Shown here: in pieces, positions 2,793 through 27,893 of the stretch
How the letters are laid out: every line of letters starts with the position of its first letter
How positions within the stretch are numbered: the stretch's first letter is position 1
Assembly (NCBI GenBank): GCA_905236105.1
Contig: CAJOOI010000153.1
Span: 1 to 34,789, forward strand
Direction: 5' to 3'
Length of the DNA stretch: 34,789 nt
Source: an uncultured Acholeplasmatales bacterium
Lineage (GTDB): Bacteria; Bacillota_I; Bacilli_A; Acholeplasmatales; Anaeroplasmataceae
Program-made: the position numbers and the translations under genes
The notes under the pieces: generated by a model
Databases searched by the model: none
What the model saw: only the letters and a program-made list of their open reading frames with translations
What the model was told of the DNA's origin: nothing

Positions 2793-4205
2793 TTAAAAGC
2801 CAAAATATTTTTTAGCGTTATTATAACAAATATCTTCAACAATTTGGCCGAGTCTATCTAATTCTTCAACAGGATATTGTCCTGATTCAACTAAATTACC
2901 AAGTTTTTGACATAATATTCTACGGTAATATTCATGACGAGGATATGCAAGGAAACTACGTGAATCAGTTAACATACCAACAGTTTGAGCAATTAATGCA
3001 ACTTGCATCATATGTTCCATATTAGTTGACATACCTTCTTGTTGATCTAAGAACCACCAAGCAGTACCAACTTGTACTCTATTTTGTACACCTTCTTTTT
3101 GGAAGCATCCAGCTAAAACCATAAGTGGATAATTATCTCTTGGATTTAGATTATATAATATAGTTTTAGGAAGCATATCTGCTTCATCAAGCGCGCCTAA
3201 TAATGCAGATAATTTTTCCATATATACTTGGTCTTCAATTGCATCAAAACCAGTATCTGGGCCGATTTTTTTTAACATTGATTTAGAATTATTTCTTAAT
3301 GCGCCGATATGATATTGTTGTGTCCAACCATGCTTGAAATATTCTTTTCCTAAGAATACCATAATATATCCTTTATATTGATCTTGTTCTAAATCAGATA
3401 CTGCATCCCCCTTCATACCTTTTTTAAATACTTTATTTGCTTCATCATAAGTAGAAGGTACGAAATGAACAACATCAAGTGCATGGTCTGAAAGACGAGA
3501 ACCCATTTCATGGAAGAAATCAATTCTTAAAGATAATGCTTTTTCTAAATCTTTTAATTCTTTAATTTCAAAGCCTACAACTTTTGAAAGCTGTAAAACC
3601 CAATCTTTGAACCAAGAAAGTTCAACATTGATGGCTTTATCTGGTCTAAATGCAGGTCTAACTTTAACTTTTAATGTTTTATCTGCATTCATTTGTTTAT
3701 GCCAATGTAAGTCATCTACTGGATCATCAGTAGTACATACTGTATCAACATTGAATTTGTATAACATTTCTCTTGCAGTAAGTGTTTCTAGTTTTTTATT
3801 TGCTTTATCCCAAATAACTTTTGCATTCTTTTCATTGATTATTTCATAAATATCAAAATATCTTCTTAATTCAAGATGGCTCCAGTGATATAAAGGATTA
3901 CCAACAAAATAAGGCATAGATTCTACGAATTGTAAATATTTTTTATAATCATCATCTGGTCCAGAAATAGAATCTTCGTTATAACCTCTAGCTCTTAGAG
4001 CTCTCCATTTATAATGATCTCCATATCTATCACCAGCACCTAACCAAGCTTCTGCTAGATTTCTAAATTTTTTATCTTCTGCAATTTCTTTTGGTTGAAG
4101 ATGGCAATGATAATCAATAATTGGCATCTTTTCTGCATGCTCATGATATAATTTTTTTGCAGTTTCAGTAGTTAACAAGAAATCCTTGTCCATAAATTCT
4201 TTCAT
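2793..4205 (-). CDS. uxaC: Glucuronate isomerase (uronate isomerase)
   Basis: IIDYHCHLQPKEIAEDKKFRNLAEAWLGAGDRYGDHYKWRALRARG and DSRSFLAYPRHEYYRRILC motifs; adjacent to uxaA and uxaB. Confidence 0.95.
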   Translation of the reverse strand: MKEFMDKDFLLTTETAKKLYHEHAEKMPIIDYHCHLQPKEIAEDKKFRNLAEAWLGAGDRYGDHYKWRALRARGYNEDSISGPDDDYKKYLQFVESMPYFVGNPLYHWSHLELRRYFDIYEIINEKNAKVIWDKANKKLETLTAREMLYKFNVDTVCTTDDPVDDLHWHKQMNADKTLKVKVRPAFRPDKAINVELSWFKDWVLQLSKVVGFEIKELKDLEKALSLRIDFFHEMGSRLSDHALDVVHFVPSTYDEANKVFKKGMKGDAVSDLEQDQYKGYIMVFLGKEYFKHGWTQQYHIGALRNNSKSMLKKIGPDTGFDAIEDQVYMEKLSALLGALDEADMLPKTILYNLNPRDNYPLMVLAGCFQKEGVQNRVQVGTAWWFLDQQEGMSTNMEHMMQVALIAQTVGMLTDSRSFLAYPRHEYYRRILCQKLGNLVESGQYPVEELDRLGQIVEDICYNNAKKYFGF

Positions 4206-4371
4206 TTTTCTCTCTCTTTCATTTCCTTAAATTTTCTATTTTTATATTTGTAAATATATTTTAAAGATAAGAAGTAGTATTTTAAATAAGATATATATTA
4301 TTGAGTGAGTAATATTTTTAATCAAATTTAATAATCAAATACAACATTTTTTATGCATAGCTTTTATTTTT

Positions 4372-5850
4372 TTATAGAACTACACCATCTTTAAAAATTG
4401 ATATTTCTCTAAAGTTATTTTGTTCATTTTTAGCTTGTTTCTTGCCGGAAGCAATATCACAAATTAAGTCGATGAAATCTTCTAATAATTCATCCATATT
4501 CTTTTCATCAACTAATGCACCCGCATTAAAATCAATCCAGTTTGATTTTTTTGTTGCAAGTTGAGTGTTAGTTGCTACTTTAACTGTAGGCACAAATCCA
4601 CCAAAAGGAGTACCTCTACCAGTTGTAAATAATACCATTTGACAACCACTTGCAGCAAGTGTAGTAACTGCAACTAAGTCATTGCCAGGAGTAGTAAGTA
4701 AGCTTAAACCTTTGCTTTTAATTCTATCTCCCATTTTTAATACATCATTTACTTTTGATGCACCACCTTTTTGAACACAGCCTAAAGATTTATCTTCAAG
4801 AGTTGTAATTCCCCCATTTTTATTGCCTGGAGATGGATTATCATAAATAACTTGATCATGATTTTTAAAATAAACTTTGAAATCATTGATTAATTCAACA
4901 ATTTTGTCAAATGTTAATTTATCTTTTGCACGAGCCATTAATAATTGTTCTGCGCCAAACATTTCAGGAACTTCTCCTAAAACAGTAGAAGCATCATTTA
5001 ATGATAAGAAATCAGAAAATCTACCTAATAATGGATTGGCAGTAATACCACTCATACCATCAGAACCACCACATTTTAGACCGATTCTTAATGCACTTAA
5101 TGGTCTTGTAACACGATTATCATTTTTCATTTGGTCAAATAATTCTTCAAGTAATTTAACGCCAGCTTCAACTTCATCTTCAACTTCTTGGCTAACTAAA
5201 AAACGAGTTCTATCTTTGTCATATTCGCCTAATGAAGCAATAAATTCAGACATTTGGTTTTCTTCACAACCTAAACCTAAAACTAATACACCACCAGCAT
5301 TTGGATGTTTTACCATATCTTGTAATAATTTTCTTGTAAGATTTAGGTCATCTCCCATTTGTGAACATCCAAAAGGGTGTGTGAAAGTAAATACACCATC
5401 AATACAAGAAGTATCATGTTTAGCTTTAAATTCTTTTATAATGTTATTAGCCATACCAGAAACACAACCTACAGTTTGTATGATCCATAGTTCGTTTCTA
5501 ATACCATATTCACCATTTTTTCTTTCAAATACATCAACAGTACGATCAGATTTATATCCTAAAACTTCTGGATAATTTGGTTCATATTTGTATGTGATAA
5601 CATCATCAAGGTTAGTTGCTACATTTTGTACATGTACATGGCTACCTTTTTTGATGTCTTTTGTTGCATGTCCAATTGGGTTACCATATTTAATGATATT
5701 TTCACCTTTTTTGATATCAACTAATGCAACTTTATGTGCTTGAGGAATATCTTCAAGTAGTGTAACTCCTAATATTTGTTCGCCTTTTTTAAATGGACGA
5801 AGTACTACAGCTACATTATCTATTTTATGTATAACTATAAAATCATTCAT
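4372..5850 (-). CDS. uxaA: Altronate dehydratase
   Basis: N-terminal SAF-like domain, then GCVSGMANNIIKEF, THPFGCSQMGDD, GLKCGGSDGMSGITANPLLG. Confidence 0.94.
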   Translation of the reverse strand: MNDFIVIHKIDNVAVVLRPFKKGEQILGVTLLEDIPQAHKVALVDIKKGENIIKYGNPIGHATKDIKKGSHVHVQNVATNLDDVITYKYEPNYPEVLGYKSDRTVDVFERKNGEYGIRNELWIIQTVGCVSGMANNIIKEFKAKHDTSCIDGVFTFTHPFGCSQMGDDLNLTRKLLQDMVKHPNAGGVLVLGLGCEENQMSEFIASLGEYDKDRTRFLVSQEVEDEVEAGVKLLEELFDQMKNDNRVTRPLSALRIGLKCGGSDGMSGITANPLLGRFSDFLSLNDASTVLGEVPEMFGAEQLLMARAKDKLTFDKIVELINDFKVYFKNHDQVIYDNPSPGNKNGGITTLEDKSLGCVQKGGASKVNDVLKMGDRIKSKGLSLLTTPGNDLVAVTTLAASGCQMVLFTTGRGTPFGGFVPTVKVATNTQLATKKSNWIDFNAGALVDEKNMDELLEDFIDLICDIASGKKQAKNEQNNFREISIFKDGVVL

Positions 5851-5862
5851 ATATTCACCAAA

Positions 5863-7359
5863 TTAAAAGAATTTTTTTAAAGCTTCTCTTTCAGGATTGT
5901 TTACAATTTCAAATAATGCTTCGCTTACAAAATCAGTAACACCTGAAACTTGATTTAAGTCGCATCCCCAATGTTCTTTTAATCCTAATACTTGTTTAAC
6001 TAATTTTCGTGCACCTTCTTTAGTGTTTTCATAATTAGCCCATAATTCTTTAAACATTTCAATAAATTTAGGATCGTCTTTTAAATCAATTACTTGATTA
6101 TTACAAATAGGTCTTATACCTCTATAGAAAACCATTAATGATGCTAAAGAGAATAATGCATGTTTAGGTAATTCATTCTTTCTTTCAATATATTGTAATA
6201 CTGTAGGTAAAACTCTTTCTTTATATTTAGAACATGAATTTAATGCGATACTCATTAATTCATGGCGTACATATGGGTTCATATACCTTTCAAGTACGCT
6301 ATTTGAGTATGCAACCATTTGATCATGAGGAATATCAATTGTAGGGATAACTTCATTAAAGATAAATTCTTTAACAAATTTACCTAATTGTTCATCTTCA
6401 ATTGTTTCTCTAACTGTATCAATACCACTTAAGTATGAAACTGGAACTAAAGTAGTATGAGAACCATTTAAGATTTTAACTTTTCTTTGTTTATAAGGTA
6501 CGATAGAATCAACAAATAAAACATTTAAACCAGCTTTTTCTGTTGGAAGATTTTCTTTTAATAAAGCAAGATTCTTTTTATTTAATTCTTTATCATTTGT
6601 AGTTTGAGCATCTAAACACCATAAATGGAAGATTTCACCTACAACCATATTATTATCTTGATATCCTAATTCTTGTTGGAATTGATCAGCTTCATTTCTA
6701 GGATAGCCTGGTACGATTCTATCTACTAATGTGTTATAGAATCTGTTTTCATTTTCAATCCATGAAACAAATTTTTCATCTTTGTTGCAATGTCTTGCAA
6801 GTTTAACTAAAACTTCTTTTAATGTTTCACCATTATGATCAATTAATTCACATGGAATTATGAATAAACCTTTCTTAACAGTATTATATCTTCTTTCTAA
6901 GAAAGCAAGAAGTTTTCCTGGATAACTTTTTGGACAACTAGAAAAATCTGTATCTTCTGGGTCGAAAGCAATTCCAGCTTCAGTAGTATTTGAAATAACG
7001 AATTCTAATTCAGGAGATTCAGCATATTTTAAATATTTTTCATATTCTTCAAATGGATTAAGTGCATCTTGAATAGCATTAATTACTTCATGAACTCTTT
7101 GTGCCTTGCCATCTTGAAGGCCTTGTAAATATAAAGTATAAAGACAATTTGCTTCCTTTAATTCTTTACATCTACCAAATGGCATAGGTTGAACTACGGC
7201 AACACCTCCGTTAAATACTCCTTTTTTGTTCATCGAATTAATAATCCAATCTACGAAAGCTCTTAAGAAGTTTCCTTCACCAAATTGTAAAACCTTGATT
7301 GGTAAAGGTTTAACTTTGTTTACCTCTTGAATTAAAGGTAGTTTTTTTACATCACTCAT
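5863..7359 (-). CDS. uxaB: Tagaturonate reductase (altronate oxidoreductase)
   Basis: VLQFGEGNFLRAFVDWIINSMN and KVKILNGSHTTLVPVSYLSG typical of mannitol/altronate dehydrogenases; SD GGAGG. Confidence 0.93.
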   Translation of the reverse strand: MSDVKKLPLIQEVNKVKPLPIKVLQFGEGNFLRAFVDWIINSMNKKGVFNGGVAVVQPMPFGRCKELKEANCLYTLYLQGLQDGKAQRVHEVINAIQDALNPFEEYEKYLKYAESPELEFVISNTTEAGIAFDPEDTDFSSCPKSYPGKLLAFLERRYNTVKKGLFIIPCELIDHNGETLKEVLVKLARHCNKDEKFVSWIENENRFYNTLVDRIVPGYPRNEADQFQQELGYQDNNMVVGEIFHLWCLDAQTTNDKELNKKNLALLKENLPTEKAGLNVLFVDSIVPYKQRKVKILNGSHTTLVPVSYLSGIDTVRETIEDEQLGKFVKEFIFNEVIPTIDIPHDQMVAYSNSVLERYMNPYVRHELMSIALNSCSKYKERVLPTVLQYIERKNELPKHALFSLASLMVFYRGIRPICNNQVIDLKDDPKFIEMFKELWANYENTKEGARKLVKQVLGLKEHWGCDLNQVSGVTDFVSEALFEIVNNPEREALKKFF

Positions 7360-7548: not shown

Positions 7549-8025
7549 TTATTTGTGATATTTTTCGCCATTTATAATTTTAAAAGAACGATATATTTGT
7601 TCTAATAATATGACTTTCATCAAGTTGTGAGGAAATGTCATTTTAGAAAAAGATAATTTAAGGTTTGCTAATTTTTTTACTTCATCAGATAATCCTAAAG
7701 AAGCACCAATAATAAAAGTTATATGCGAATTAGTATTATATATATTTTCAATTTTATCAGCAAAAGAAATACTATCAAATTCCCTACCTTCAATAGCTAA
7801 TACAACAACATAACTATTTTTAGGAAGAGAATTAATTATTTTTTCTCCTTCTTTTTTTAAGATGATTTCTTCCATATTTTTAGATGCATTATCAGGAATT
7901 GGCTCATCTAATAGGGTTATATCATTTAATTCTACAAATTTAGATAATCTTTTTTCATATTCTTTTATTGCATCAAGTGTGAATTTTTCTTTAATTTTAC
8001 CTACTGTAATGATTGTTATTTTCAT
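7549..8025 (-). CDS. rlmH: 23S rRNA (pseudouridine1915-N3)-methyltransferase RlmH
   Basis: ITVGKIKEKF, FIIGASLGLSDEVK, MTFPHNLMKVILLEQIYRSFKIINGEKYHK. Confidence 0.96.
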   Translation of the reverse strand: MKITIITVGKIKEKFTLDAIKEYEKRLSKFVELNDITLLDEPIPDNASKNMEEIILKKEGEKIINSLPKNSYVVVLAIEGREFDSISFADKIENIYNTNSHITFIIGASLGLSDEVKKLANLKLSFSKMTFPHNLMKVILLEQIYRSFKIINGEKYHK

Positions 8026-8861
8026 ATTTCAAATGTATCTTTCTTATATGCTTTTAAAATAACGAATTTAATATTATCTTGGGATATTTGATATTCTTTA
8101 AATACTTTTTCTCTTTCAAGCTCTATAATTTGAGATAAATTACATTCTGTAGAAACATGGGCATGTAAAACTAATTTTGTATTATTGCCTATTACACTTA
8201 CTAATGTTAGCATTGAATCTAAATTAGATAAATGCCCATAATCAGATAAAATTCGCATTTTTAATTGATATGGTCTATTTGATGATAGAAGAATATCTGG
8301 GTCATGATTTGATTCTAACAAATATCCATCTGCATTCTTAATAATATCAAATAATGCATTATGTACATAACCAGTATCTGTGATATAAACAAATCTTTTT
8401 AATTCAGCTGTAAATACAAATCCTACAGATTCTCTAGCATCATGAAATGTTGGAAGGGGTTGGACATAAAAATCTTTTATATTAAAGCCTTCATATAAGA
8501 AATTATCTTTTTCTCTTCTTAATATTCTAAATATCCCTCTGTTATATTTTTCCATTAATTTTTCATAAGATTTTTGATCGTTTTTGGCTTTAAATTGTGA
8601 AACAATTGCGTTTAATGTTCCTTCAGTTAAATATATTTTTATGTCAAATTTATTTAAAATAGCCATTAATCCTTTTATATGATCAACATGTTCGTGGGTA
8701 ATCAATATGGCATCTATATCATTAAGTGATAAACCAGATGAAGATAAATATTCTTCAATCATCTTTTTGGATAAACCTACATCAACTAATATGTTTGTCA
8801 TATTCGCTCTTATTAATGCTGAATTACCATCTGAACCACTTGAAAAAACTTCAATTTTCAT
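8022..8861 (-). CDS. walJ: MBL-fold metallohydrolase, WalJ/YycJ family
   Basis: SSGSDGNSALIRANMTNILVDVGLS, ITHEHVDHIKGL. Start taken at MKIEVF (8861), preceded by a GAGG SD, rather than the ORF-track start at 8897. Confidence 0.88.
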   Translation of the reverse strand: MKIEVFSSGSDGNSALIRANMTNILVDVGLSKKMIEEYLSSSGLSLNDIDAILITHEHVDHIKGLMAILNKFDIKIYLTEGTLNAIVSQFKAKNDQKSYEKLMEKYNRGIFRILRREKDNFLYEGFNIKDFYVQPLPTFHDARESVGFVFTAELKRFVYITDTGYVHNALFDIIKNADGYLLESNHDPDILLSSNRPYQLKMRILSDYGHLSNLDSMLTLVSVIGNNTKLVLHAHVSTECNLSQIIELEREKVFKEYQISQDNIKFVILKAYKKDTFEI

Positions 8862-8990
8862 ATTACGCCTCAATTCTTTTGATATTATAACACGCATTCA
8901 AACTAAAATTAACTAAATATTTTAAGATATTTTAATATGAATTATAGAGTATTATTCAAATTGCTTGTTGAATTTGTGTTAATTGAAAGC

Positions 8991-9068: not shown

Positions 9069-9108
9069 ATTACGTGCTATGATTATTTTAAGGTAAAGGA
9101 GTTAAATA

Positions 9109-12100
9109 ATGAGCAAAAGCAAAGTAAAAGCTAAAAGGGCATTGACTGTAACAATGTCACTAGCTTTAGGAATAACACTTTCTGCATGTTCAGGTGCGAC
9201 AAATAATTATGGTTCATTAGACAGCAATTCCGTTTATGCCTCTGCTGGAACTTATGAAGTTACAAAAGGCGAGTTATGGGATGAACTTAAATGGAATGCT
9301 CAAAGTCTATTAAGTGAACAAATTGAAAATGTTGTGCTTGATGAGCAGATAACAAATCTAAGAAACGTATTTGAAAAAACTTACACAGAACTTTCAACTA
9401 CAGAAAAAGAAGATTTAGGTGTTAGTGATGAAGCAGGCTTCAATAGCCTATACGAAAAATACAAAAAAAGATTCATTGATTACGTGGTACAGGACGTATT
9501 CTCATTTACTTACTCTACAGAAGATTATTGGGATAATGTAGAAAATCTTGATGAAACTGATGCAAAAACACTTATTTACAAATATGTTGATACTGTTTTT
9601 ACAACATATCACAAAGAAGCTTTAGAAGATGGAACAACATATTTAAATCTATTATTAGAAGCTTATGAAAATGGTGCTGAAGACAACAAGATGAATTTCT
9701 TTGAATTTGGTTTATCTTTAAAAGAAAAATTCTACCCATTATATGCAAAAGAATTATTAGCATATCAATCTTTAAAAGAAGAAGTAGATAAAGCTGCCGA
9801 AGAAGACACTGATGAAGATGACAATATGATTGGCTATTATGAAAATACATCATATGTAAATAAATTCAAATCAGAATATACAAATAAATATGATTTGGAT
9901 TTAATCTTAATCCGTTTTGCATCATCTGATGAATATAATAATACATTAAGAGCATTTGGCGTAAAAGTATATAATAAACGTTATTATTTCATTAGAGATA
10001 ATGCTGATGATGGTTATGATTCATATCTTGAAAGTGAAAATAAATTATCATTAACAAAATATAATGAATTATATGATGGCTTTTCTACTAGCCAACTTAC
10101 AAAAGAAAATGGTGCATACGAATTAACTAGTGAAGAAGTATTAGAATTGTTCATCCAAATCTATAATTATTCTTATAGTGGTTATCGTAGCCCACTTGCA
10201 TCTACAGTAATAACAAAAAATACAGTTTTACACAAAGATGTAAATGGCAATGATGTTTTAGCAGATTATGCAAATTTAAGTTTAAATAATTTAAGAGATG
10301 TCACATATTCAATTACAAAAGAATATGCATCAAATGCAACTGAAAAATATGAAGCTAATATTGAATCATTAAAAGAAAATAATAAAACTGAAACTACATT
10401 CTATTCTGATGATTTGAAAAATGATTATTCAGATTCATTTAGAGTTTATATGTATGAAACTTTATTATTAACTGATGACCAAGGATATCAAGATTTACAT
10501 GCACGTTATACTACAACAACACAAAGTGCAAATAGTGCTCAATATGCTATCTACAAATTTGGCGAAGAAAAGAATTTCCGTGAAGGTGAAGAAGTAGATG
10601 ATGAAACATTATTAGAATATCAAAATTTCTATAAATCATCTTTATCTAAATATGAAATTCTTTCATATATTCAAGATGATAGTAGAAAAGTCTTATTTGA
10701 AACAATACTTGATTTATTAATGCATGATGATATTACTTCAAATAAAATTTCAACTGTTTTAAGTGATGAAACTGAAAATGTAAAAGTATCAATTTATAAT
10801 GAAGCAGTAGAAATTGGTTATAAAAAAGATAATTCTGATTATTCTAATACAATTCTAAGTGCAGCAAATAATAATATTTTAGCCACATTAAGCTATGATG
10901 ATAAAACTTGGAATTTAAATATCGTAGGTGATGCAAATGATGAAAATTCATTAAAGGTTGCAGGATATGATACTCCATATAGCGCATATGATGTATTAGA
11001 AAGACAAAATGGTATTTCAGTAGCATCTTCATTATTATCTAGAAAGATTGTAAAAGATACTAAAACTTATAAAGATACACTAAATGAAAAAGATACAAGA
11101 GAAAGCTACAAAAATTATTTAGAGAATATGTTAATTTATTTTTCTAATGATTATTATTCTTCAAGTGGTTATCCTTCATCTATCGGTAAATATAATTTCT
11201 TAATGTTATATTTCCATACTGCTGATGTAAATTCAATTATTGAAAATACATATTTATTATCACTTGCTACATCTAGATTACTTACTGATTATTCATCAGA
11301 TACTTTAGCATCATTCTTCAAAGAATATGCTGATTTAGCATATGATAAATATTTCTCAATGGAATCTAAAACATTATTAGTTTATTTTGACCGTGATGAT
11401 GACGATGAACCAGATGAGGTAGATGTAGATGATCCTAATAACTGGATTTTTGATGAAGTATCATTTGATGGTGATTTCCATACAAGGGGATATGTAGCTA
11501 AATCATTAATATATGATGTTTATCAAGAACTTGCAGCATCATCTACAGCTCATAGTGATTATTTAGATACTTTAGTTACTGAAATTAATAATTCAAGTAA
11601 AGCTGTTTATGAAGAAAATCCAATTTCTTCTGAAAACAAATGGGCAAAATATCGTTATTTAGGCTTTAAAGTAAAAACAGTTACAAATTCTGTAACTAAC
11701 GCAACTACTCAAATCGACTTTGATTTAAAACAAAGATTATTTGATTATGCTAAAGGCTCAAATGATGATGGTACTAAGACCTATCAATATTTCATAAATG
11801 ATTCAATCCCAACTTCATATATGGAAATTTTAAGTCAAGATAATGTTGCAGAAAATGATGATACAATCTTAAGAACTGTTGATGGATATAACCTAAATTT
11901 AATAACAACAGGTACAGCTAAATCATCTGCTAAATGGAGTGAAGATGATTATAAAAACACTGAATTGTTAGAAAATATTTGGTTAAAATATAATGAAAAA
12001 TATGTTAAGGTTGATAATGTCTATAATGAAGATGATAAATTATCTTTAAATCAAATTTTATTATATGTACTTGACCAAGCAGTTAATGGCTCATCTACAT

Positions 12101-12444
12101 TAAGCCCAGCCGCAATTAATGATGCACTTACTAATTATTTAAGCCCTGTATATACAAGATTTACAAGTGATGCAACTCAATCAATTGTATTACTTAACTT
12201 TATTAAAAAAGCAACTAATTCAGAAGCAGAATTATATGATGTTATAAAATATAATTCTGATAATACATATAATGGTGTTTCAGGAAAAGTTGCAAGAACT
12301 ATTATCATCAATGAAGATGTTGCTGATTCATATTCAAGATATATTAACGATACAACAGGAACATCAGATACATTTGAAAATTGGTGGGAAAAATTATACG
12401 AACAAGTTGCTAACTTCCTAAGCAAGAAAGAGGAGGATAAATAA
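9109..12444 (+). CDS. Giant lipoprotein A (1111 aa), putative divergent SurA/PrsA-like (parvulin-fold) protein
   Basis: Lipobox LSACSG; SurA_N-like 'TYEVTKGELWDELKWNAQSLLSEQIENVVLDEQI'; two parvulin-like modules inferred by alignment to the next gene; SD AAGGAG. Confidence 0.6.
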   Translation: MSKSKVKAKRALTVTMSLALGITLSACSGATNNYGSLDSNSVYASAGTYEVTKGELWDELKWNAQSLLSEQIENVVLDEQITNLRNVFEKTYTELSTTEKEDLGVSDEAGFNSLYEKYKKRFIDYVVQDVFSFTYSTEDYWDNVENLDETDAKTLIYKYVDTVFTTYHKEALEDGTTYLNLLLEAYENGAEDNKMNFFEFGLSLKEKFYPLYAKELLAYQSLKEEVDKAAEEDTDEDDNMIGYYENTSYVNKFKSEYTNKYDLDLILIRFASSDEYNNTLRAFGVKVYNKRYYFIRDNADDGYDSYLESENKLSLTKYNELYDGFSTSQLTKENGAYELTSEEVLELFIQIYNYSYSGYRSPLASTVITKNTVLHKDVNGNDVLADYANLSLNNLRDVTYSITKEYASNATEKYEANIESLKENNKTETTFYSDDLKNDYSDSFRVYMYETLLLTDDQGYQDLHARYTTTTQSANSAQYAIYKFGEEKNFREGEEVDDETLLEYQNFYKSSLSKYEILSYIQDDSRKVLFETILDLLMHDDITSNKISTVLSDETENVKVSIYNEAVEIGYKKDNSDYSNTILSAANNNILATLSYDDKTWNLNIVGDANDENSLKVAGYDTPYSAYDVLERQNGISVASSLLSRKIVKDTKTYKDTLNEKDTRESYKNYLENMLIYFSNDYYSSSGYPSSIGKYNFLMLYFHTADVNSIIENTYLLSLATSRLLTDYSSDTLASFFKEYADLAYDKYFSMESKTLLVYFDRDDDDEPDEVDVDDPNNWIFDEVSFDGDFHTRGYVAKSLIYDVYQELAASSTAHSDYLDTLVTEINNSSKAVYEENPISSENKWAKYRYLGFKVKTVTNSVTNATTQIDFDLKQRLFDYAKGSNDDGTKTYQYFINDSIPTSYMEILSQDNVAENDDTILRTVDGYNLNLITTGTAKSSAKWSEDDYKNTELLENIWLKYNEKYVKVDNVYNEDDKLSLNQILLYVLDQAVNGSSTLSPAAINDALTNYLSPVYTRFTSDATQSIVLLNFIKKATNSEAELYDVIKYNSDNTYNGVSGKVARTIIINEDVADSYSRYINDTTGTSDTFENWWEKLYEQVANFLSKKEEDK

Positions 12445-12445
12445 T

Positions 12446-15394
12446 ATGAAATTAAATAAGAAAATATTATTTGGCCTTTCTTTAGGCTTAGCTGGTATAG
12501 CTTTAGCAAGCTGTTCAACTGAAAAATATAATCAAGTTGTTCCATATGGAACTCTTGAAGGAAGCTTTGATACTAAAATTGCTACAGCAAATGGCGATTT
12601 AAGTATGAATTTAAAACAATATTATTCTCGTTTAAGAAATGCAGGTTATGATGTTGTTGAAAATGCAATCAATAAACAATTATTCAAAGCTGAATTAGCA
12701 TGTTATAAAGATATGTTATTTGCTAAGACTATTAATGAACTTCAAGACAAAGAAAATACTTTAAAAACTTTAGCATTAACTAAAGACAATGTTAAATTAT
12801 ATGAAATTACAGATGAAAAATACGCTGAATTAAGAGAAGAATTATTAGAAGAAGTAAACACATCTTTAGCTTCAGCAATTTTCTCTACTGGTGTTGAAGA
12901 AACAATTAATAACCAAACTGAAAAAGAAAAAACAATTGCAATTAAAAAATTCGTTAATGCCCAAAACCAATTAGGCGTTGAATTAAGTGCTTCTGATATT
13001 GCATGGTTTGGAAAATCAAATCCAAATTATACTTTAAAAGAAACTTCAAAATTAATTCAATTTGAAGATACTACTTTAAGAAAATTAAGTAATTTAGTTG
13101 ATGGCTATTTATTAACTGAAGCTCAAAAATTATCTGCTAAAAAAGCATTATACGAAATTGCTGATAAAGAATATATTTATGATTCTGATAAAGAAGATGA
13201 TATAAAAAATTCAAATTATTTATTTTCAGATAAAGATATTAAAGCTGCATATAATAATACATATAAAACATATGGTACTTATAAAGCAGTTGTTATTCAA
13301 TTCAACACACTTAAAGAAGCACTTGATACAATGAATAAAGTAACTGCAAATGCAGGTATTTCAAGTGATGCTGATGTTGCTAAAACACAATATTTAGGAA
13401 TATATAATTCTTATTATTCATTTAAAGATCAGTTAACTGATGCAAAATCATTTGTTGTATCTAAAGATCAAAATGAATTATCAGATTTTAGCTCAAGCAT
13501 TCAAACATTAATAAAAGAAACTTTAGAAGATAATGAATATCTTCTAGAACCAAGAAACTTTAACAATAAATATGTTTTAGTTTATAAATTTGATACTGAA
13601 TATGATTTACATTCTTCTGAAGGTGCAAATAAACAACTTGATTTTGATAAACTAAGTGAAGAACAATTACAAGAATATACAGTAAAAATTAAAGAAGATA
13701 TTCTTGATGCTAGTGTTTCATCATACTTATCAGTAAACAAACAAAATTTATTAGAAGATTCAAATATTAAGATTTATGATCCTCTATTTGAATCAAAATT
13801 CTATTATGCTAATTCTAGCTTTTATGAAAGAATTACAGATACTGTTTCATCTACAAGTTCTAATATTTTCTCAATTGGAGATTATAATTACACAGTAAAT
13901 GATTTTTATGATGAAGCATCTTTAAAATATGCATCAAGCATAATTAATGAACATTTAACGCTTGAATATACATATAAATATTATGATCAATATGTAAATC
14001 AATATTACATTTCAAGCGAATTACATGATACAAATGTTGAAACATTAGAAAGTGATATCAGTAGCTTTGAAGCTGGTAAAAAATCACAATATCCTACATC
14101 ATATGGTCTTTCTACATATTTATTAGGAAATTATGGATATGAAACAAAAGAAGACGTAATCAAATATTATTATGATGCACGTCAAGCAAGAACTACTTAT
14201 TTATCTAGATATGTATTTGAAGAATGGTCAGATTTAGAAAATAATGTAACTGATGTTGCTAAAACAGGTTTCTTAAACAAATTACTTGAAACTGGTAATG
14301 AAAATTACAAAAATTTATTTGAAATTAATTTAGATCATATCTTAATTAATATTGATGATGATGGAGATGGTTCTCCAGATGATCCTAATAAATTCTTAGC
14401 TGATAACCCAGCAGTTGCAGATGAATTTAAAGAAGCAGTTGCAGAATTAGCTGTAGCTTTATATCAAGAATCAATTAATGAAGTTTATTCAGGCAATACT
14501 TTATATGAGATTTTAACTCATATTAAATCTGATTTCCAACGTGGTGAAACATTAAAATCAGATAATACTAAAACATGGGATGATTTTAAGAAATTTAATT
14601 TCTTATTAACTGTTGAAAAACTTGCATCATCTTCAAATATTACTGAATCAACAGTATCAAGCTTTGTTACTCCATTTGCTGATTATGTAAAGAATGTTTA
14701 TAAATTCGCATCTTCAGATGGTGAATCTAAAGCAAGTACTTCAAATTCAGATGGTGTATATTATTTTGTATATACTAATGATGAAGGTGAATTAACAGGT
14801 CATACTGCTAAAACTCTAGAAGATAGTAAATATATAACTTATGATTCATTATGTATGACTAATTATGGTTATCATATGTTAATCTTAAATTCATATACTA
14901 AACCTAGAGAAACAATTTCAAAAGAATCTGATGATAGCGTAAATTACTTAAAAGAAATTAAAGTAATATTACATAAATATACAGATGACGATGATAAAGA
15001 AGTTAGTATTTATGCAGTTCTTGATGGTTATAATGAAGATACAAAAGATGCAGCAAACTTCAATCAATTCTTCATTTATTATGTACAAAAACAAAATGGA
15101 GATAGTTCTTCATTAGAATCAAACATTTATAATCTATTATGTCGTATGTTTGATAATTCTGTATCTACATTTAATTCTTCTAATTTCCAAAATTATTTAT
15201 TAGCTAAGACATTAGATGTAAAAATAAATACATCAGCTATTCTAAATGTTTCATTAAAACAATTATATGTTGATGCTTTAGTTGAAAATTATGAACTAAC
15301 ATTAACTAATTATGGTACTGAAGATACATATGAAAGCTGGTTAATTGATGATGCAGATGATCTTGCATCTTGGGCAAGACCTGACAAAAAATAA
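12446..15394 (+). CDS. Giant lipoprotein B (982 aa), paralog of A, putative divergent SurA/PrsA-like protein
   Basis: Lipobox LASCS; 'SDKDIKAAYNNTYKTYGTYKAVVIQFNTLKEALDTM' and 'HILIN...NYGYHMLIL' resemble parvulin strands; one nt after the stop of A; SD AGGAGG. Confidence 0.6.
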   Translation: MKLNKKILFGLSLGLAGIALASCSTEKYNQVVPYGTLEGSFDTKIATANGDLSMNLKQYYSRLRNAGYDVVENAINKQLFKAELACYKDMLFAKTINELQDKENTLKTLALTKDNVKLYEITDEKYAELREELLEEVNTSLASAIFSTGVEETINNQTEKEKTIAIKKFVNAQNQLGVELSASDIAWFGKSNPNYTLKETSKLIQFEDTTLRKLSNLVDGYLLTEAQKLSAKKALYEIADKEYIYDSDKEDDIKNSNYLFSDKDIKAAYNNTYKTYGTYKAVVIQFNTLKEALDTMNKVTANAGISSDADVAKTQYLGIYNSYYSFKDQLTDAKSFVVSKDQNELSDFSSSIQTLIKETLEDNEYLLEPRNFNNKYVLVYKFDTEYDLHSSEGANKQLDFDKLSEEQLQEYTVKIKEDILDASVSSYLSVNKQNLLEDSNIKIYDPLFESKFYYANSSFYERITDTVSSTSSNIFSIGDYNYTVNDFYDEASLKYASSIINEHLTLEYTYKYYDQYVNQYYISSELHDTNVETLESDISSFEAGKKSQYPTSYGLSTYLLGNYGYETKEDVIKYYYDARQARTTYLSRYVFEEWSDLENNVTDVAKTGFLNKLLETGNENYKNLFEINLDHILINIDDDGDGSPDDPNKFLADNPAVADEFKEAVAELAVALYQESINEVYSGNTLYEILTHIKSDFQRGETLKSDNTKTWDDFKKFNFLLTVEKLASSSNITESTVSSFVTPFADYVKNVYKFASSDGESKASTSNSDGVYYFVYTNDEGELTGHTAKTLEDSKYITYDSLCMTNYGYHMLILNSYTKPRETISKESDDSVNYLKEIKVILHKYTDDDDKEVSIYAVLDGYNEDTKDAANFNQFFIYYVQKQNGDSSSLESNIYNLLCRMFDNSVSTFNSSNFQNYLLAKTLDVKINTSAILNVSLKQLYVDALVENYELTLTNYGTEDTYESWLIDDADDLASWARPDKK

Positions 15395-15402
15395 AAAAAT
15401 AT

Positions 15403-15428
15403 GAAGAGGCTAAATGCCTCTTCTTTTC
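15403..15428 (+). terminator. Rho-independent terminator of the tandem lipoprotein operon
   Basis: GAAGAGGC-TAAAT-GCCTCTTC followed by TTTTC. Confidence 0.75.
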
Positions 15429-15442
15429 ATAAGGTGAAATTG

Positions 15443-16366
15443 ATGAATTATTTTACTAAAGATAAGCCTTATAATTCTTTAAATGAATATTATTTAAAAA
15501 AATATGGATTTAAGGTTGCAAAGATTCCGCTTAATTTAAATTTTAGTTGTCCAAATAAAGATGGATTAAAAGGTTATGGTGGTTGTATATATTGTAGTAA
15601 AATGGCTAGTGGTGATATACAAGATTATCACAATGATTTAAAAACACAATATAATAAATTAAAAGAATTACAATTAAATAAATGGAAAAATATTAAATTT
15701 ATGCCTTATTTACAAGCTGGCACAAATACTTATGCAGATACATCTATTTTAAAAGAAATATATAATAATGCTTTAAATTTAGATGAAGATTTATTTGGTT
15801 TATCTATTGCTACAAGGCCAGATTCTATTACTGAAGATACATATGAATTATTAAATGAATTAAATAAAAAAACTCATTTGCAGATTGAATTAGGGTTTCA
15901 AACAGCAAATGAGGAAACTTCTAAATTTATAAATAGAGGCTTAACAAATTTAGAATTTGAAAATTGTGTTAATCGTTTAATTAATAATAATATTGAAGTC
16001 GTTGTCCATATAATAAATGGACTTCCATATGAAACATATGATGATATGATTAATACAATTAAATATTTAAATCAATTTAAGATAAGTGGAATAAAAATTC
16101 ATATGTTATTAGTTTTAGAAGATACCAAATTATATGATATTTATAAATCAAAACCATTTCATTTATTAACTTTAGATGAATATGTAAAAATAGTATGTGA
16201 TCAAATTTCATATTTGAATGATAATGTAATTATTCATCGATTATCAAGTGATTCACCTATTGATGGATTTATGCCAAAATGGCCTAAAAAGAAAATAATA
16301 GTTATGAATGAAATAGATAAATATATGAGAAAAAATAATTTATTTCAAGGAAAATATATAAAATAG
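15443..16366 (+). CDS. TIGR01212-family radical SAM protein (YhcC-like)
   Basis: NFSCPNKDGLKGYGGCIYCS (radical SAM Cys cluster); start at MNYF with SD AAGGTGA, not the ORF-track start at 15401, which lies in the terminator. Confidence 0.88.
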   Translation: MNYFTKDKPYNSLNEYYLKKYGFKVAKIPLNLNFSCPNKDGLKGYGGCIYCSKMASGDIQDYHNDLKTQYNKLKELQLNKWKNIKFMPYLQAGTNTYADTSILKEIYNNALNLDEDLFGLSIATRPDSITEDTYELLNELNKKTHLQIELGFQTANEETSKFINRGLTNLEFENCVNRLINNNIEVVVHIINGLPYETYDDMINTIKYLNQFKISGIKIHMLLVLEDTKLYDIYKSKPFHLLTLDEYVKIVCDQISYLNDNVIIHRLSSDSPIDGFMPKWPKKKIIVMNEIDKYMRKNNLFQGKYIK

Positions 16367-21325: not shown

Positions 21326-22945
21326 TTAATCTCCAAAGATTTTTAATAATTCAGTTAAATCTTTGATTACATAATCAGGCTTTGCATCAAGCATAATTTC
21401 TGGATGTTTGATATATAAAACACCTACAGCTGTTACATTTGCTTTAATAGCGGCATCTATATCAGATTTAGTGTCACCAACATATGCTACTTTATTTGCT
21501 TCTAATTCTTTTTTAGCCCTTAAGATACCTTCAGGATCTGGTTTGGGTGCTTTTACATTATCTGCACCTATAACTAAATCGATATATTTATCTAAGCCAC
21601 ATATTTCTAATCCATGTAATACTAAATCAGATTTTTTTGAAGAACATACTGCAAGCTTTAAACCTGATTTTTTTAAATTCTTTAATGTTTCTTTTGCATG
21701 TGGAAAAGCTTTTACCATAGAATCATGATTTGGAATATTATATGAGCGATATGTTTCAATCATTTCATTAATTTCTTTTTCATCTGTACTATATTTAGAA
21801 AAAGATTGATATAGAGTTGGACCAAAAAATGAATCTATTTCATCATCAGTTAATTTATAACCAGGACGATGTTTTTCAAATGTATAAATTACAGATGCAT
21901 CAATTAAGGCCTTAGTGTCTAATAATGTACCATCTAAATCAAAAATTACTGCATCATATTTCTTCATCTTCACTTCACTAACTAAATCCATATATGGAGT
22001 TTGTGGAGTATTTATAATTAAATATTTTAATCTATTTGTAAGACCAATATAGGCAAATTTTAGATAATATACAAAAGTATTATTTTCTTCTTTTTTAGGC
22101 ATATCCTTTTTAGGATTTTTAAATTTTACAAAAACTGCAAGTCTTTTTAGAATTAAGAAAATAACACCTACGACAATGAAAATAATACTGATTAAGATTG
22201 AAACAGGAACAGGACCTGCCATAAGTGGTTCAGCAACACCACTTTGTAATCTTAAGCTTTCAGTGAATATTCTAACTGCACCATACCAAGTTAGATAAAA
22301 GCCAAGCAAATCACCTGTTTTAACTTGTTTTAATTTTCTTGGTAGTACAATCATTAATACTAATCCTACTAAATTTAATAATGATTCATATAAAAATACT
22401 GGGTGTCTATAAGCTCCATCAATATACATCATAGGACCAATAAGTGGAATATGTTCAACGAAACCTGAAGCATCGATTGGACCATATAATTCATGATTAA
22501 AGAAATTTCCCCATCTTCCTGTTATTTGACCAATAATGATAGCTGGTGCCATTAAATCAACCATTTTGAAGATGCTTAATTTTTTTATTCTTGAATAGAT
22601 ATAAATAGTTAAAGATGCAACTATTACACCACCATGGATTGCAAGACCAGAAAGACCCATAAATTTGCCATTTCTAAATCCTATTACTTCAGCAAAATTT
22701 GAGAATTGATCTAAATTGAATAATACATACCATATTCGAGCACCAATTATTGCAAGAGGTAATGTTATAATAATTGCTAAATAAATATCATCAGATTTGA
22801 TTCCAATTCTTTTGCCTTCATAAGTAATATAATATGCAGCAATTACAACACCAATTAAAATACATACAGCATACATAGTGAAAATACCAAATAATTTTGT
22901 TGGCTCACCACTATAATATAAGAAAGATAAAAAATTAGTTATCAT
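21326..22945 (-). CDS. lgt: Fusion of prolipoprotein diacylglyceryl transferase and HAD-family phosphatase (PpaX-like)
   Basis: Lgt motifs GLSGLAIHGGV and GRWGNFFNHELYG, then HAD motifs FDLDGTLLDT, KPDPEG, YVGDTKSDIDAA in one uninterrupted ORF; start at MITNF with GAGGTG SD. Confidence 0.9.
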   Translation of the reverse strand: MITNFLSFLYYSGEPTKLFGIFTMYAVCILIGVVIAAYYITYEGKRIGIKSDDIYLAIIITLPLAIIGARIWYVLFNLDQFSNFAEVIGFRNGKFMGLSGLAIHGGVIVASLTIYIYSRIKKLSIFKMVDLMAPAIIIGQITGRWGNFFNHELYGPIDASGFVEHIPLIGPMMYIDGAYRHPVFLYESLLNLVGLVLMIVLPRKLKQVKTGDLLGFYLTWYGAVRIFTESLRLQSGVAEPLMAGPVPVSILISIIFIVVGVIFLILKRLAVFVKFKNPKKDMPKKEENNTFVYYLKFAYIGLTNRLKYLIINTPQTPYMDLVSEVKMKKYDAVIFDLDGTLLDTKALIDASVIYTFEKHRPGYKLTDDEIDSFFGPTLYQSFSKYSTDEKEINEMIETYRSYNIPNHDSMVKAFPHAKETLKNLKKSGLKLAVCSSKKSDLVLHGLEICGLDKYIDLVIGADNVKAPKPDPEGILRAKKELEANKVAYVGDTKSDIDAAIKANVTAVGVLYIKHPEIMLDAKPDYVIKDLTELLKIFGD

Positions 22946-23879
22946 TATTTCCACCTCTTGCTGCAGCGCTATCTACTTTAGTAATAAAATCTAAGGCAGA
23001 ATTTTGGCCTAAAAATTTTAATTTTTCATTCATTGCAGCTGATTCTACTAATAATGCAACTGGTCTACCAGGTAATACAGGTACAATTACTTTTGTAATT
23101 TCAGTATTAAAATATTTGATTGTAAGGTGATCAAGGCCTAATCTATCATAATATTTTCCCTCGTTCCAGCTTTGTAATTCAACAACTAATCTAATATTTT
23201 TTCTTTCTCTATATGCACCAATACCAAACATTGAAATTACATCAACAATACCTATACCTCTAATTTCCATGTATCTTTTTATTAATTCAGGTGCCTGTCC
23301 AATTAGATTTCCTGGTTCTTTTTCCATGATTTCAACTAAGTCATCACTTATTAATTGATGACCACGTTTAATTAAATCAAGTGCTGTTTCTGATTTACCT
23401 ATACCACTTTTACCAATGATAAGAGTTCCCATACCATTAATGTCCATTAATGTTCCATGAATGCTAATTCTTTCAGCTAGGGCATCTTGTAAATATGTAT
23501 ATAATTTAGATGATGTTTGAGTGGTTGGTAAATTGGATCTAAATGTTGCAACATTATATGTATTAGCAACTTCATAAAAAATTCCATCAATAATTACATT
23601 TTTAGAAAATACTACTACTGGTGGCTTTCTTTTATATAATTCATGTACATTATTTTTTATTATGTCATAAGATTGAGTAAATAAGAAGGCTGCATCTTTT
23701 GATCCTATTAATACTAATCTACTGTTTTTAAAATAATTAAAATAGCCATTAAATTCAAGACCAGGTCTTGATATTTCATCTTCGGTTAAAACAGCATCAA
23801 GTCCACCTCCACCAGCTAATAATTCTAGGTTATTATCTTCTGCAAATTTTCTTACTGTAACTGTTTTGATAATAATCAT
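22935..23879 (-). CDS. hprK: HPr kinase/phosphorylase
   Basis: GTLIIGKSGIGKSETALDLIKRGHQLISDD Walker A, MEIRGIGIVDV. Confidence 0.95.
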   Translation of the reverse strand: MIIIKTVTVRKFAEDNNLELLAGGGGLDAVLTEDEISRPGLEFNGYFNYFKNSRLVLIGSKDAAFLFTQSYDIIKNNVHELYKRKPPVVVFSKNVIIDGIFYEVANTYNVATFRSNLPTTQTSSKLYTYLQDALAERISIHGTLMDINGMGTLIIGKSGIGKSETALDLIKRGHQLISDDLVEIMEKEPGNLIGQAPELIKRYMEIRGIGIVDVISMFGIGAYRERKNIRLVVELQSWNEGKYYDRLGLDHLTIKYFNTEITKVIVPVLPGRPVALLVESAAMNEKLKFLGQNSALDFITKVDSAAARGGNNDN

Positions 23880-24624: not shown

Positions 24625-24655
24625 CAAAATAAAGAACAATCAATCAAGATTGTTC
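24625..24655 (-). terminator. Terminator at the 3' end of hypA
   Basis: GAACAATC-AATCAA-GATTGTTC, followed on the minus strand by TTTATTTTG. Confidence 0.75.
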
Positions 24656-25006
24656 CTCATTTTCAACAATTTCTATATCTTTAATATTTACTTCATCGCC
24701 TGTGATTAAATAAGTATTATCACTTAAGCAATGTGGGCATATTTTAGCAAATGTTGTTGTTTTAAAAGTTTTTTGACAATTATTACAATAACTTAATGCT
24801 TCCAAAACAATTATATTACATTCACAATTCTTCATATATTCTGTTTTTTTAATAGCCCATTTCCATACATCAAGAAAATATTTAGGTATAACTAAAGATA
24901 CTTCACCAATTTCTATATTGATTTTAGTTACTTCTTTAACTTTGTTTTCTTTAGCTATTTTTTCTACTTTTTCAATGATGTGAAATACTATTCCGAGCTC
25001 ATGCAT
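24644..25006 (-). CDS. hypA: Hydrogenase/urease nickel incorporation protein HypA
   Basis: N-terminal MHE Ni-binding motif; zinc motif CNNC...CPHC. Confidence 0.92.
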   Translation of the reverse strand: MHELGIVFHIIEKVEKIAKENKVKEVTKINIEIGEVSLVIPKYFLDVWKWAIKKTEYMKNCECNIIVLEALSYCNNCQKTFKTTTFAKICPHCLSDNTYLITGDEVNIKDIEIVENEEQS

Positions 25007-27890
25007 TTACATGATTACCTGTATTTGGTTTAGTTTTTTTAGCGAATTTATAATGCTTCTTCCAAGCTTTTCTTTTCTTTCTCATTAAACAAGCTTCACG
25101 AGATCTAGAATTAGCAATAATCTTAAATCCACGAACTGTAGCATATGATAAAAGACCTGTAACTTTCTTTTCAGCAATTCTCATATCAGTACATTCAGGA
25201 TGATCTCTTACAAGGTGTATTGCATCAAATTCACATTTAGTAGTACATACACCACATCCGATACATTTGTTGTAATCAACAACTGATGCACCACAACCTA
25301 AACATCTTGATGTTTCAATTTTAACTTGTTCTTCAGTTAATGTTTTATGAGCATCTCTAAATGAATTCTTATGGTCGATTTTATCATCCATACCTTCTTC
25401 TTGACGTTTATGAGTATCATAGCACTCTACTTTTATATCATCAGTATCAAGAGGAATGAAATTACGTCTATCTTTACCGATAGTCATATGAGCATGTGGT
25501 CTTACATATCTATGAATTGAATCAGCTACTTCATGACCTTGAGCGATTGCATCAATTACAAATCTAGGACCTGTATAAACATCACCACCAACAAAAATAG
25601 CCTCATCATCAGTTTGATATGTTAATTTGTCAGCTACTGGATAATTTCCATGCCAGAATTTAACGTTTGTACCCTCTAATAATTTACCCCATTCAATTGC
25701 TTGTCCGATAGCAAATACAATTTTATCTGCTTTAACTGTAATTGTTTCTTCTTCATTATATGCTGGGTCAAATTTTTTAGTTTCAGGATTAATTGTACGG
25801 ATACATCTTTTTAATGTGATTCCAGATACATTTCCTTTTTCATCAACCCAAACTTCTTTTGGACCCCAAGAATTATTGATGATAATTCCTTCTTCTTTTG
25901 CTTCTTTAACTTCATCATTTGAAGCTGGCATAGAATTTGCATCTTCTAATGAATACATATTGACAGTTTTAGCATTTAATCTATGTGAAACTCTAGCACA
26001 ATCTATTGCAACATTACCACCACCGATAACTACAACATCTTTGCCTTTTAAAGATTCCATATTTTCATAAGCATCTTTTAAGAATTCTACTGCAACACTT
26101 GTACCTAAAGCTGTATCATTCTTAACATTAGGACGTCTTCCGCCTTGGCAACCAATTGCGATATAGAAAGCTTTATAGCCTTGAGCCTTAAGAGAATCAA
26201 TAGTGATATCTTTACCTACTTCAACTCCACATTCAATTTCTACACCTAAAGCTTTAATTATTTCTATTTCTGCATCAATTACATTCTTTTCAAGCTTATA
26301 TGATGGAATACCATATTGCATCATTCCACCAGGTTTTGCATTCTTTTCAAATACGTGTGGTTTATAACCTAATATAGCTAAATAATATGCTGCAGAAAGA
26401 CCTGCTGGACCTGCACCAATAATTGCAATTTTTTCATCAAATGAGCCATTTCTCTTAGGTATATTCTTGTTAGGAATATATCTAGTTTTATTATTCATAT
26501 CTAAATCAGCAACAAATTTTTTAACTGCATCTATTGCAACTGGAGCATCAATCTTTCCTCTTGTACACGCATCCTCACATCTTTTGTTACATACACGACC
26601 ACAAACAGCTGGGAATGGATTTTCTTTTTTAATTAAAGCTAATGCTTCTTGATATCTTCCATCTTTTGCCATCTTTAAATAGCCTTGTACTGGAACATGC
26701 GCAGGACATGCAGCTTTACATGGTGATGAACCAGTATCATATGAATTTTTCATTCTTGCTGTATCACGATAATTTTCATCCCAAGCATATTTGCCCCAAT
26801 GAATTTTATCTGGAAGGATAGAAACAGGGTATTTAACCATTGTTCCATCTTTCTTACATAATTTTTGGCCAAGTTTAACTGCACCAGCTGGACAATATTC
26901 AACACAACGACCACAGGCAACACAGTTTTTAGGATCTACTTTAGCTGTATATGCACTTCTTGACATGTTTGGTGTATTAAATAAAAGGCTTGTTCTTAAA
27001 GCGTTACAAATCTTTACATTACAGTTACATATAGCAAATATCTTATTTTCACCATCAATATTTGTAATTTGGTGAACGAAGCCTAATTCTTCTGCTTGTC
27101 TAATAATATCAAGTGCTTCTTCTTTAGTGATTAATCTACCTTTACCTGTTTCAGCCATATAATCGGCCATGTCCCCCATGCCGATACACCAACCCATAGA
27201 ATCATCTGCACAGCCTTCATCTAAGGCAGCACGAGATGCTCTACATGAACATATACCAGTAGAGAAATGTCCATTATATTTTTGAATCCAGTAAGAAATT
27301 TTTTCGAATTTTACTGCTTCACTATTCATTTCAATTGCTTTTTCAACTGGGATGACATGCATACCAATTCCATTACCACCAGGTCTTACCATTGAAGTAA
27401 TTTTTTCAAGAGGTGTGAATGTCATTCTTTCAAAGAATGAGGCAACTTCAGGATGTTCATCTATTCTTGATTGTAAGCTGTTGAAGAACTCAGCTGAACC
27501 AGGAACGAAGAAAGGAAGCATATATCTTTTCTTTCTAGGTGCATCTGTAGGTCCGTTATCATCATAATTATTTCCATAATCATATTCGATTAAACCAATA
27601 ACAGCCATTTCATCTAATATTCTTTGTAATTCTTTTGGATCTAGGTTTTTATTAATTTGTTGTAATTCTTCAAAATAATAATGTTTTCTAACTTTCATTT
27701 TTAAGGCTACATCAGCCATTTCATCAGTAACTATGCTGCTTAAACCCCAATATTCAGCATCGTTACTATTTATACCTAATAATTTATGAGGTACAACGTC
27801 TGTTATTTTTTTACCAAGCTTTAAAATCTTCTTTCTAGGATTTTCTTCACCTTGGGCTTTTACTTTGACATAATCATATTGTTCAGGCAT
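24999..27890 (-). CDS. Large Fe-S/FAD/NAD(P) oxidoreductase with GltD-like core and ferredoxin domains
   Basis: CVACGRCVEYCPAGAVK; GltD-like CKAACPAHVPVQGYL...CGRVCNKRCEDAC; FAD GAGPAGLSAAYYLA; VVVIGGGNVAIDCAR; C-terminal CIGCGVCTTKC. Confidence 0.88.
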   Translation of the reverse strand: MPEQYDYVKVKAQGEENPRKKILKLGKKITDVVPHKLLGINSNDAEYWGLSSIVTDEMADVALKMKVRKHYYFEELQQINKNLDPKELQRILDEMAVIGLIEYDYGNNYDDNGPTDAPRKKRYMLPFFVPGSAEFFNSLQSRIDEHPEVASFFERMTFTPLEKITSMVRPGGNGIGMHVIPVEKAIEMNSEAVKFEKISYWIQKYNGHFSTGICSCRASRAALDEGCADDSMGWCIGMGDMADYMAETGKGRLITKEEALDIIRQAEELGFVHQITNIDGENKIFAICNCNVKICNALRTSLLFNTPNMSRSAYTAKVDPKNCVACGRCVEYCPAGAVKLGQKLCKKDGTMVKYPVSILPDKIHWGKYAWDENYRDTARMKNSYDTGSSPCKAACPAHVPVQGYLKMAKDGRYQEALALIKKENPFPAVCGRVCNKRCEDACTRGKIDAPVAIDAVKKFVADLDMNNKTRYIPNKNIPKRNGSFDEKIAIIGAGPAGLSAAYYLAILGYKPHVFEKNAKPGGMMQYGIPSYKLEKNVIDAEIEIIKALGVEIECGVEVGKDITIDSLKAQGYKAFYIAIGCQGGRRPNVKNDTALGTSVAVEFLKDAYENMESLKGKDVVVIGGGNVAIDCARVSHRLNAKTVNMYSLEDANSMPASNDEVKEAKEEGIIINNSWGPKEVWVDEKGNVSGITLKRCIRTINPETKKFDPAYNEEETITVKADKIVFAIGQAIEWGKLLEGTNVKFWHGNYPVADKLTYQTDDEAIFVGGDVYTGPRFVIDAIAQGHEVADSIHRYVRPHAHMTIGKDRRNFIPLDTDDIKVECYDTHKRQEEGMDDKIDHKNSFRDAHKTLTEEQVKIETSRCLGCGASVVDYNKCIGCGVCTTKCEFDAIHLVRDHPECTDMRIAEKKVTGLLSYATVRGFKIIANSRSREACLMRKKRKAWKKHYKFAKKTKPNTGNHVNA

Positions 27891-27893
27891 TAT

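Follow-up and report, generated by a model that had tools for sequence, protein, structure and literature searches.

PrsA of Bacilli (PDB entries 4wo7, 6vj4, 7l75, and 6vj2; NCBIfam PrsA models) is the closest described counterpart of the two proteins reported here. It is a lipoprotein with a single module of about 290–360 aa, in which SurA_N-like helices, a parvulin fold, and a C-terminal helix and strand follow one another; its parvulin domain is recognized by Rotamase models and carries two active-site His and an Asp/Cys. SurA, PpiD, PEB4, and CBF2 also combine one SurA_N-like helical chaperone domain with one or two parvulin domains, and in SurA two parvulins are adjacent. Mpn444 (PDB 9gn0), an essential lipoprotein of Mycoplasma pneumoniae, is another very large lipoprotein of Mollicutes.

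We analyzed two genes, termed A and B, in a window of 34,789 nt (the whole stretch of DNA analyzed) from an uncultured bacterium of the family Anaeroplasmataceae, order Acholeplasmatales. The genes, their signals, and the conserved neighbors outside the pair, given as context, were as follows:

9109..12444, + strand: gene A, a lipoprotein of 1111 aa, giant PrsA-like protein of two modules, the second with a pseudo-parvulin
12446..15394, + strand: gene B, a 982-aa lipoprotein, giant double-module PrsA-like protein that keeps the parvulin histidine pair
9095..9101, + strand: ribosome-binding site of A, AAAGGAG, from the sequence
12430..12436, + strand: ribosome-binding site of B, GAGGAGG, from the sequence, inside the 3' end of A
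9178..9189, + strand: lipobox LSAC27 of A, from the sequence and its conservation in the family
12503..12514, + strand: lipobox LASC23 of B, from the sequence, Cys invariant
8022..8897, − strand: WalJ/YycJ-like metallo-beta-lactamase-fold gene, the divergent neighbor in nearly all relatives
7549..8025, − strand: RlmH-like SPOUT methyltransferase gene, a conserved neighbor

Both open reading frames and the single intergenic base between them, as described in an earlier sequence-only reading of this window, were borne out. Each protein starts with a signal peptide and a lipobox whose Cys is invariant or nearly so across the A and B families, as for the lipid anchor of PrsA outside the membrane. 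As the ribosome-binding site of B lies within the last codons of A, translation of the two genes is likely coupled.

Several other genes of the window deserve mention. A radical SAM protein is encoded 6 nt downstream of B in the same orientation (15401–16366, +); the relatives examined had no homolog at the corresponding position, and in them a convergent gene such as tex usually comes next after B. A uronate pathway cluster at 2793–7359 (−), comprising glucuronate isomerase, altronate/galactarate dehydratase, and a mannitol-dehydrogenase-type oxidoreductase, is kept beside the A/B locus across the family. At 21326–22954 (−), a single 542-aa ORF joins prolipoprotein diacylglyceryl transferase to a HAD hydrolase (Pfam LGT and HAD_2), which is an unusual Lgt-phosphatase fusion; ORFs of ~440–540 aa recur in Anaeroplasmataceae, whereas the homologous ORF in the sister families is only ~210–240 aa. 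Consecutive ORFs at 24644–28565 (−) encode HypA, a 963-aa Fe-S/flavin oxidoreductase, and a HypB/CobW-type GTPase; these are genes for hydrogenase maturation, carried here by a wall-less anaerobe. Finally, a 641-aa EAL-domain protein, a cyclic-di-GMP enzyme, is encoded at 28687–30612 (−) in this small-genome wall-less bacterium.

The pair was found in Anaeroplasma bactoclasticum ATCC 27112 (L094) and in uncultured Anaeroplasmataceae/Acholeplasmatales of rumen and gut, all wall-less bacteria. Its intact presence in a cultured type strain excluded an artefact of metagenome assembly. B adjoined A in all 45 testable loci, i.e., those whose contig does not end inside A (an initial joint alignment, A4, had proved too diverse to search for loci). 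The start of B was located −26 to +17 nt from the end of A in these loci, and stop and start shared a base in 24 of them. Nearly all relatives had the WalJ-like and RlmH genes next to the locus. Within the genus, identity to the window proteins was roughly 38–54%. Two sister families in the order have, at the same syntenic place, a single-copy homolog, termed S (one gene per genome). Hence, the proposal that the pair is obligate and always adjacent across the clade held within one family but not in the sister families, which have one gene there. The tree distances of A and B correlated at 0.98 (partial r 0.91 when controlled for WalJ and RlmH), a value inflated by phylogeny, and this co-divergence is only suggestive of joint work.

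Pairwise BLASTP of A against B detected no significant similarity (E 2.2); the motif matches noted in the sequence-only reading could thus, on their own, have been due to chance, and a stronger test was needed. We gathered orthologs from related genomes and built profiles from 27 A proteins and 31 B proteins. The A-family and B-family profiles aligned end-to-end in hhalign over 874 columns with an E-value of 7e-53 and 18% identity, which is the significant A-B alignment that the paralogy claim required. The profile of S aligned with those of B (E 3e-81) and A (E 1e-107), and single-sequence phmmer matched S proteins to both A and B (e.g., L061: A, 1e-23; B, 2e-19). These comparisons indicated that A and B are true paralogs. 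Three of the four motif pairs occupied matching columns of the multiple alignment, namely AQYAIYKF (A) and NKYVLVYKF (B) with a one-residue offset, SLNQILLY (A) and NFNQFFIY (B), and the C-terminal W motif. The pair VAGYDTPYSAYDV/IGDYNYTVNDFYD was only partly equivalent; the true partner of IFSIGDYNYTVN in B was LATLSYDDKTWNLNI in A, after which A has an insert.

Neither A nor B was recognized by Pfam or NCBIfam, and single-sequence searches of Pfam, NCBIfam, and PDB with them were uninformative. AlphaFold models of B (pLDDT 90, pTM 0.82) and A (pLDDT 86.6, pTM 0.80) were confident. Foldseek against PDB with the B model retrieved, in order, 9a7d (a YrvJ-YacD model; YacD is PrsA-like), PrsA of B. 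anthracis, S. mutans, and L. lactis (6vj4, 7l75, and 6vj2), SurA, PEB4, and an H. pylori PPIase, with E-values of 9e-4 to 0.03 and probabilities of 0.91–1.00 through rank 7. Almost all structural neighbors of B were PrsA, SurA, or parvulins, so that the anticipated SurA/PrsA-like fold was recovered for B. The first four matches of A were likewise PrsA-type PPIases, but they were non-significant (E above 0.2; PrsA first, E 0.27), and the assignment of A rests on its homology to B and to S.

A giant-family profile was constructed from 34 giant proteins, none of which, as far as scanned, is a Pfam-recognized PrsA. Against the whole PDB it gave one significant chain, B. subtilis PrsA 4wo7 (E 2.4e-5). 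The match was collinear on module 1, running through the PrsA N-terminal helices and then the C-terminal helix and strand, and covered residues 6–97 and 167–261 of 4wo7; together with the model and Foldseek result for B, it identified the SurA_N-like N-terminal and C-terminal (NC) chaperone domain of PrsA. In genomes of other Bacilli, the same profile reached ordinary PrsA ORFs of 330–362 aa with E-values down to 1.8e-12 (G208:C21), and these ORFs carry Rotamase_3 in the same ORF. Two other matches, apolipoprotein E in a single-protein search and MlaC/Ttg2D with the S profile (E 6e-4), lay on helical stretches, were gone with the deeper profile, and were treated as helix resemblance. Mpn444 ranked 11th for B and 5th for A in Foldseek with weak probabilities (0.15 and 0.07) and had no sequence match with the giant-family profile. 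From these models, it may be a far relative of A and B, which is a lead only.

Models, alignment, and homologs resolved each protein into two PrsA-like modules:

9190..10830, + strand: A module 1, residues 28–574, SurA_N-like helices, degenerate parvulin, PrsA-like C-terminal helix and strand
9892..10569, + strand: degenerate parvulin of A module 1, residues 262–487, LDLILIRF...AQYAIYKF, lacking the His pair, with a large insert
10876..12417, + strand: A module 2, residues 590–1103, from model and alignment
11356..11913, + strand: pseudo-parvulin of A module 2, residues 750–935, TLLVYF...GYNLNL, both histidines lost
11389..11415, + strand: Asp-rich loop D761–D769 of A, after parvulin strand 1, Ca2+-loop-like
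12515..13810, + strand: B module 1, residues 24–455, from model, alignment, and the 4wo7 profile match
13274..13603, + strand: degenerate parvulin of B module 1, residues 277–386, KAVVIQF...KYVLVYKF
13862..15340, + strand: B module 2, residues 473–965, from model and alignment
14321..14899, + strand: parvulin-like domain of B module 2, residues 626–818, interrupted by a long insert, with His631 and His810 invariant
14354..14380, + strand: loop D637-x-D-x-D641-G-x-x-D645 of B, after parvulin strand 1, EF-hand-like Ca2+ loop pattern

The strands HILIN...GYHMLIL, previously read in B as parvulin-like, proved in the model and alignment to be the first and last strands of its split parvulin domain; the equivalent motifs are HLLIY...GWHLIL in S and TLLVYF...GYNLNL in A. 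Across the giant family, the module 1 parvulin starts with xALVVRFxNLNEAN (strand-helix), ends with YYLVFKL, and has no histidines. The prediction of a SurA_N-like domain and two parvulin-like domains per chain was supported as a two-module build, but both proteins have a degenerate first parvulin, and the second of A has no histidines. B showed every feature of the giant family (two PrsA-like modules, a degenerate module-1 parvulin, and a module-2 parvulin with an Asp-rich loop and a GxH last strand), and A showed the same features except for the His. Since profile comparison of module 1 with module 2 within one protein was only marginal (S, 0.002; B, 0.0009; A, 0.085), the repeat was established from the models, the PrsA match, and intermediate homologs. 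Of the proposed SurA/PrsA-like double parvulin, the PrsA likeness was retained and the SurA layout was not: SurA has one chaperone domain with two adjacent parvulins, an arrangement of the SurA/PpiD group not seen in A and B, whereas here the whole chaperone-parvulin unit is repeated as PrsA-PrsA, with a helical chaperone domain before each parvulin. A and B also differ from that group in being lipid-anchored and of Gram-positive/Mollicute lineage.

The intermediate homologs link these giants to PrsA. The S profile reached L149 and L150 (541–545 aa) and L154, L155, and L167 of family f12 (622–770 aa), all recognized PrsA proteins (NCBIfam, E to 2.5e-48; Rotamase_3, E to 1.6e-17). L149 and L150 have two PrsA modules in tandem within the chain, and residues 61–305 of L149 share 44% identity with residues 265–509 of L150 (E 2e-54). 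Each lacks the parvulin kept in the other: L149 keeps that of module 1 and L150 that of module 2, which could reflect reciprocal domain loss or a domain swap. In these two proteins of one bacterial family (L149:5358-6992 and L150:4774-6396), the missing parvulin is replaced by a linker rich in Ala/Glu/Lys/Ser/Thr. Like A and B, the double-module PrsA proteins are homologous two-module chains with one retained parvulin; unlike A and B, they have a canonical, recognizable Rotamase domain, are shorter, and lack the Asp-rich loop.

S (H662 and H830) and B (H631 and H810) carry both parvulin histidines without exception; the A proteins have neither. Neither B nor S conserves the parvulin Asp/Cys position (GGDLG in PrsA), so that of the PrsA active site B retains both His without the Asp and A retains none. 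Because this position is not conserved, even B cannot be presumed to be an isomerase, and from these residues PPIase activity in B appears doubtful. In most giants, D-x-D-x-D-G-x-x-D or a close variant occurs between strand 1 and the first helix of the module 2 parvulin, and this loop is absent from recognized PrsA members. By its pattern it would be an EF-hand-like loop that may bind calcium.

No Rotamase match was obtained in A, B, or their own genome, nor a recognizable Rotamase domain in any of 60 genomes of the order; the parvulin assignment of A and B was made solely from fold and alignment. As the earlier reading had stated, the two proteins are much larger than standard PrsA (1111 and 982 aa, 3–4 times its length). 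They further differ from PrsA in having two modules per chain, a degenerate module-1 parvulin, a module-2 parvulin split by a long insert and carrying the Asp-rich loop, and two tandem genes. Given the lack of Rotamase recognition, the incomplete active site, and the two modules, A and B fall outside PrsA proper on the defining features tested, although PrsA is their ancestor.

The giant-family profile had matches in 123 of 198 genomes of the class, distant PrsA matches included. Among these 198 genomes, large giants occurred in families that lacked any Rotamase_3 match, with ordinary PrsA present in other families; the exceptions were the intermediate families f12 and f15, in which one protein is matched by both the giant profile and Rotamase_3. 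In the library searched, there was no paper on the giant double-module family, which is currently without any Pfam or NCBIfam name. A maximum-likelihood tree resolved A, B, and S clades, the branching of A and B being largely mirrored. The tandem pairs of family f4 (L064; support 100), L159 (100), and L166 (98) grouped with themselves, indicating that tandem pairs formed several times. The sister relation of A and B relative to S had a support of 25; duplication in the Anaeroplasmataceae stem and an older duplication with loss elsewhere both stand.

In pairs of other orders, the first gene is usually transmembrane-anchored and the second usually a lipoprotein, as judged from sequence. Tandem giant pairs of another Bacilli family (L162, L166, L168, L174, L175, L183, L184, and L185) have a membrane-anchored first gene with N/H at the two parvulin positions and a mostly lipoprotein second gene that has lost both histidines. 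Most pairs have lost the parvulin histidines unequally: A has none and B both; L163 has both in the first gene and none in the second; the pairs of family f9 have N/H in the first and none in the second; L159 and L173 have Q/H in the second; and L192 has Q/H in the first and both in the second. The pair of family f4 is the exception, since both genes keep both histidines. A broader scenario, which we regard as rather unlikely in its entirety, is that across small-genome Bacilli ordinary PrsA gave way to a giant foldase of two modules whose rebuilt parvulin responds to calcium, and that this foldase underwent repeated tandem duplication into enzyme/pseudo-enzyme heterodimers, the histidine-losing copy differing by lineage.

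A PrsA-like folding role for A and B as lipid-anchored extracellular foldases is probable. They would be tandem-duplicated giants descended from PrsA that sit, lipid-anchored, on the outside of the single membrane of a cell lacking a wall. Clients leaving the Sec translocon would be bound in their helical cradles and helped to fold in place of PrsA, as by PrsA in walled Bacilli. Any prolyl-isomerase or proline-binding capacity still left would reside in B, and A would be a holdase or scaffold pseudo-enzyme. A and B would probably act together, possibly as a heterodimer; for a physical heteromer, to which only linkage and co-divergence point, we see almost an even chance. A and B are not the only folding factors of their genome, because it also encodes a cyclophilin and three HtrA-like proteases.

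A serious though less favored possibility is that A and B are lone holdases acting independently on different clients, their adjacency being a relic of an old tandem duplication. The sister families manage with one gene, and in another bacterial family the two paralogs within a genome are ~40 kb apart (G166 and G184 coordinates), as this would allow; it fits poorly with the strict adjacency and near-overlapping stop and start in 45 of 45 loci and with repeated independent tandem pairs in which one partner loses the His pair. Considerably less probable is the recruitment of PrsA-descended proteins as surface structural proteins or adhesins, which would form a surface coat and contribute little or nothing as foldases. 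Giant surface proteins are abundant in wall-less bacteria, and the very large size, rapid divergence, big inserts, and lost catalytic positions would be in keeping with such a coat. However, unlike variable adhesin families, the giants have one locus per genome at a fixed place beside walJ-rlmH, both modules and the His pair of B and S are conserved, and their distribution is complementary to that of PrsA. Chance or compositional (Asn/Asp/Tyr/Ser-rich) resemblance of unrelated lipoproteins, compatible with the non-significant BLASTP, is refuted by the three hhalign alignments, the phmmer matches of A and B to the same single-copy proteins, and the tree groups.

The foldase reading is the one we prefer, and the results supported the sequence-only reading in essence. 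An unnamed surface/secretion family, widespread in Acholeplasmatales and many small-genome Bacilli, can thereby be assigned a fold, PrsA as its ancestor, and a likely function, and it explains the apparent absence of PrsA from these genomes. Canonical PrsA, double PrsA, the giants, and the tandem giant pair with one pseudo-parvulin form a natural series suited to testing how a chaperone function can survive the loss of PPIase activity and what leads foldases to become heteromeric.
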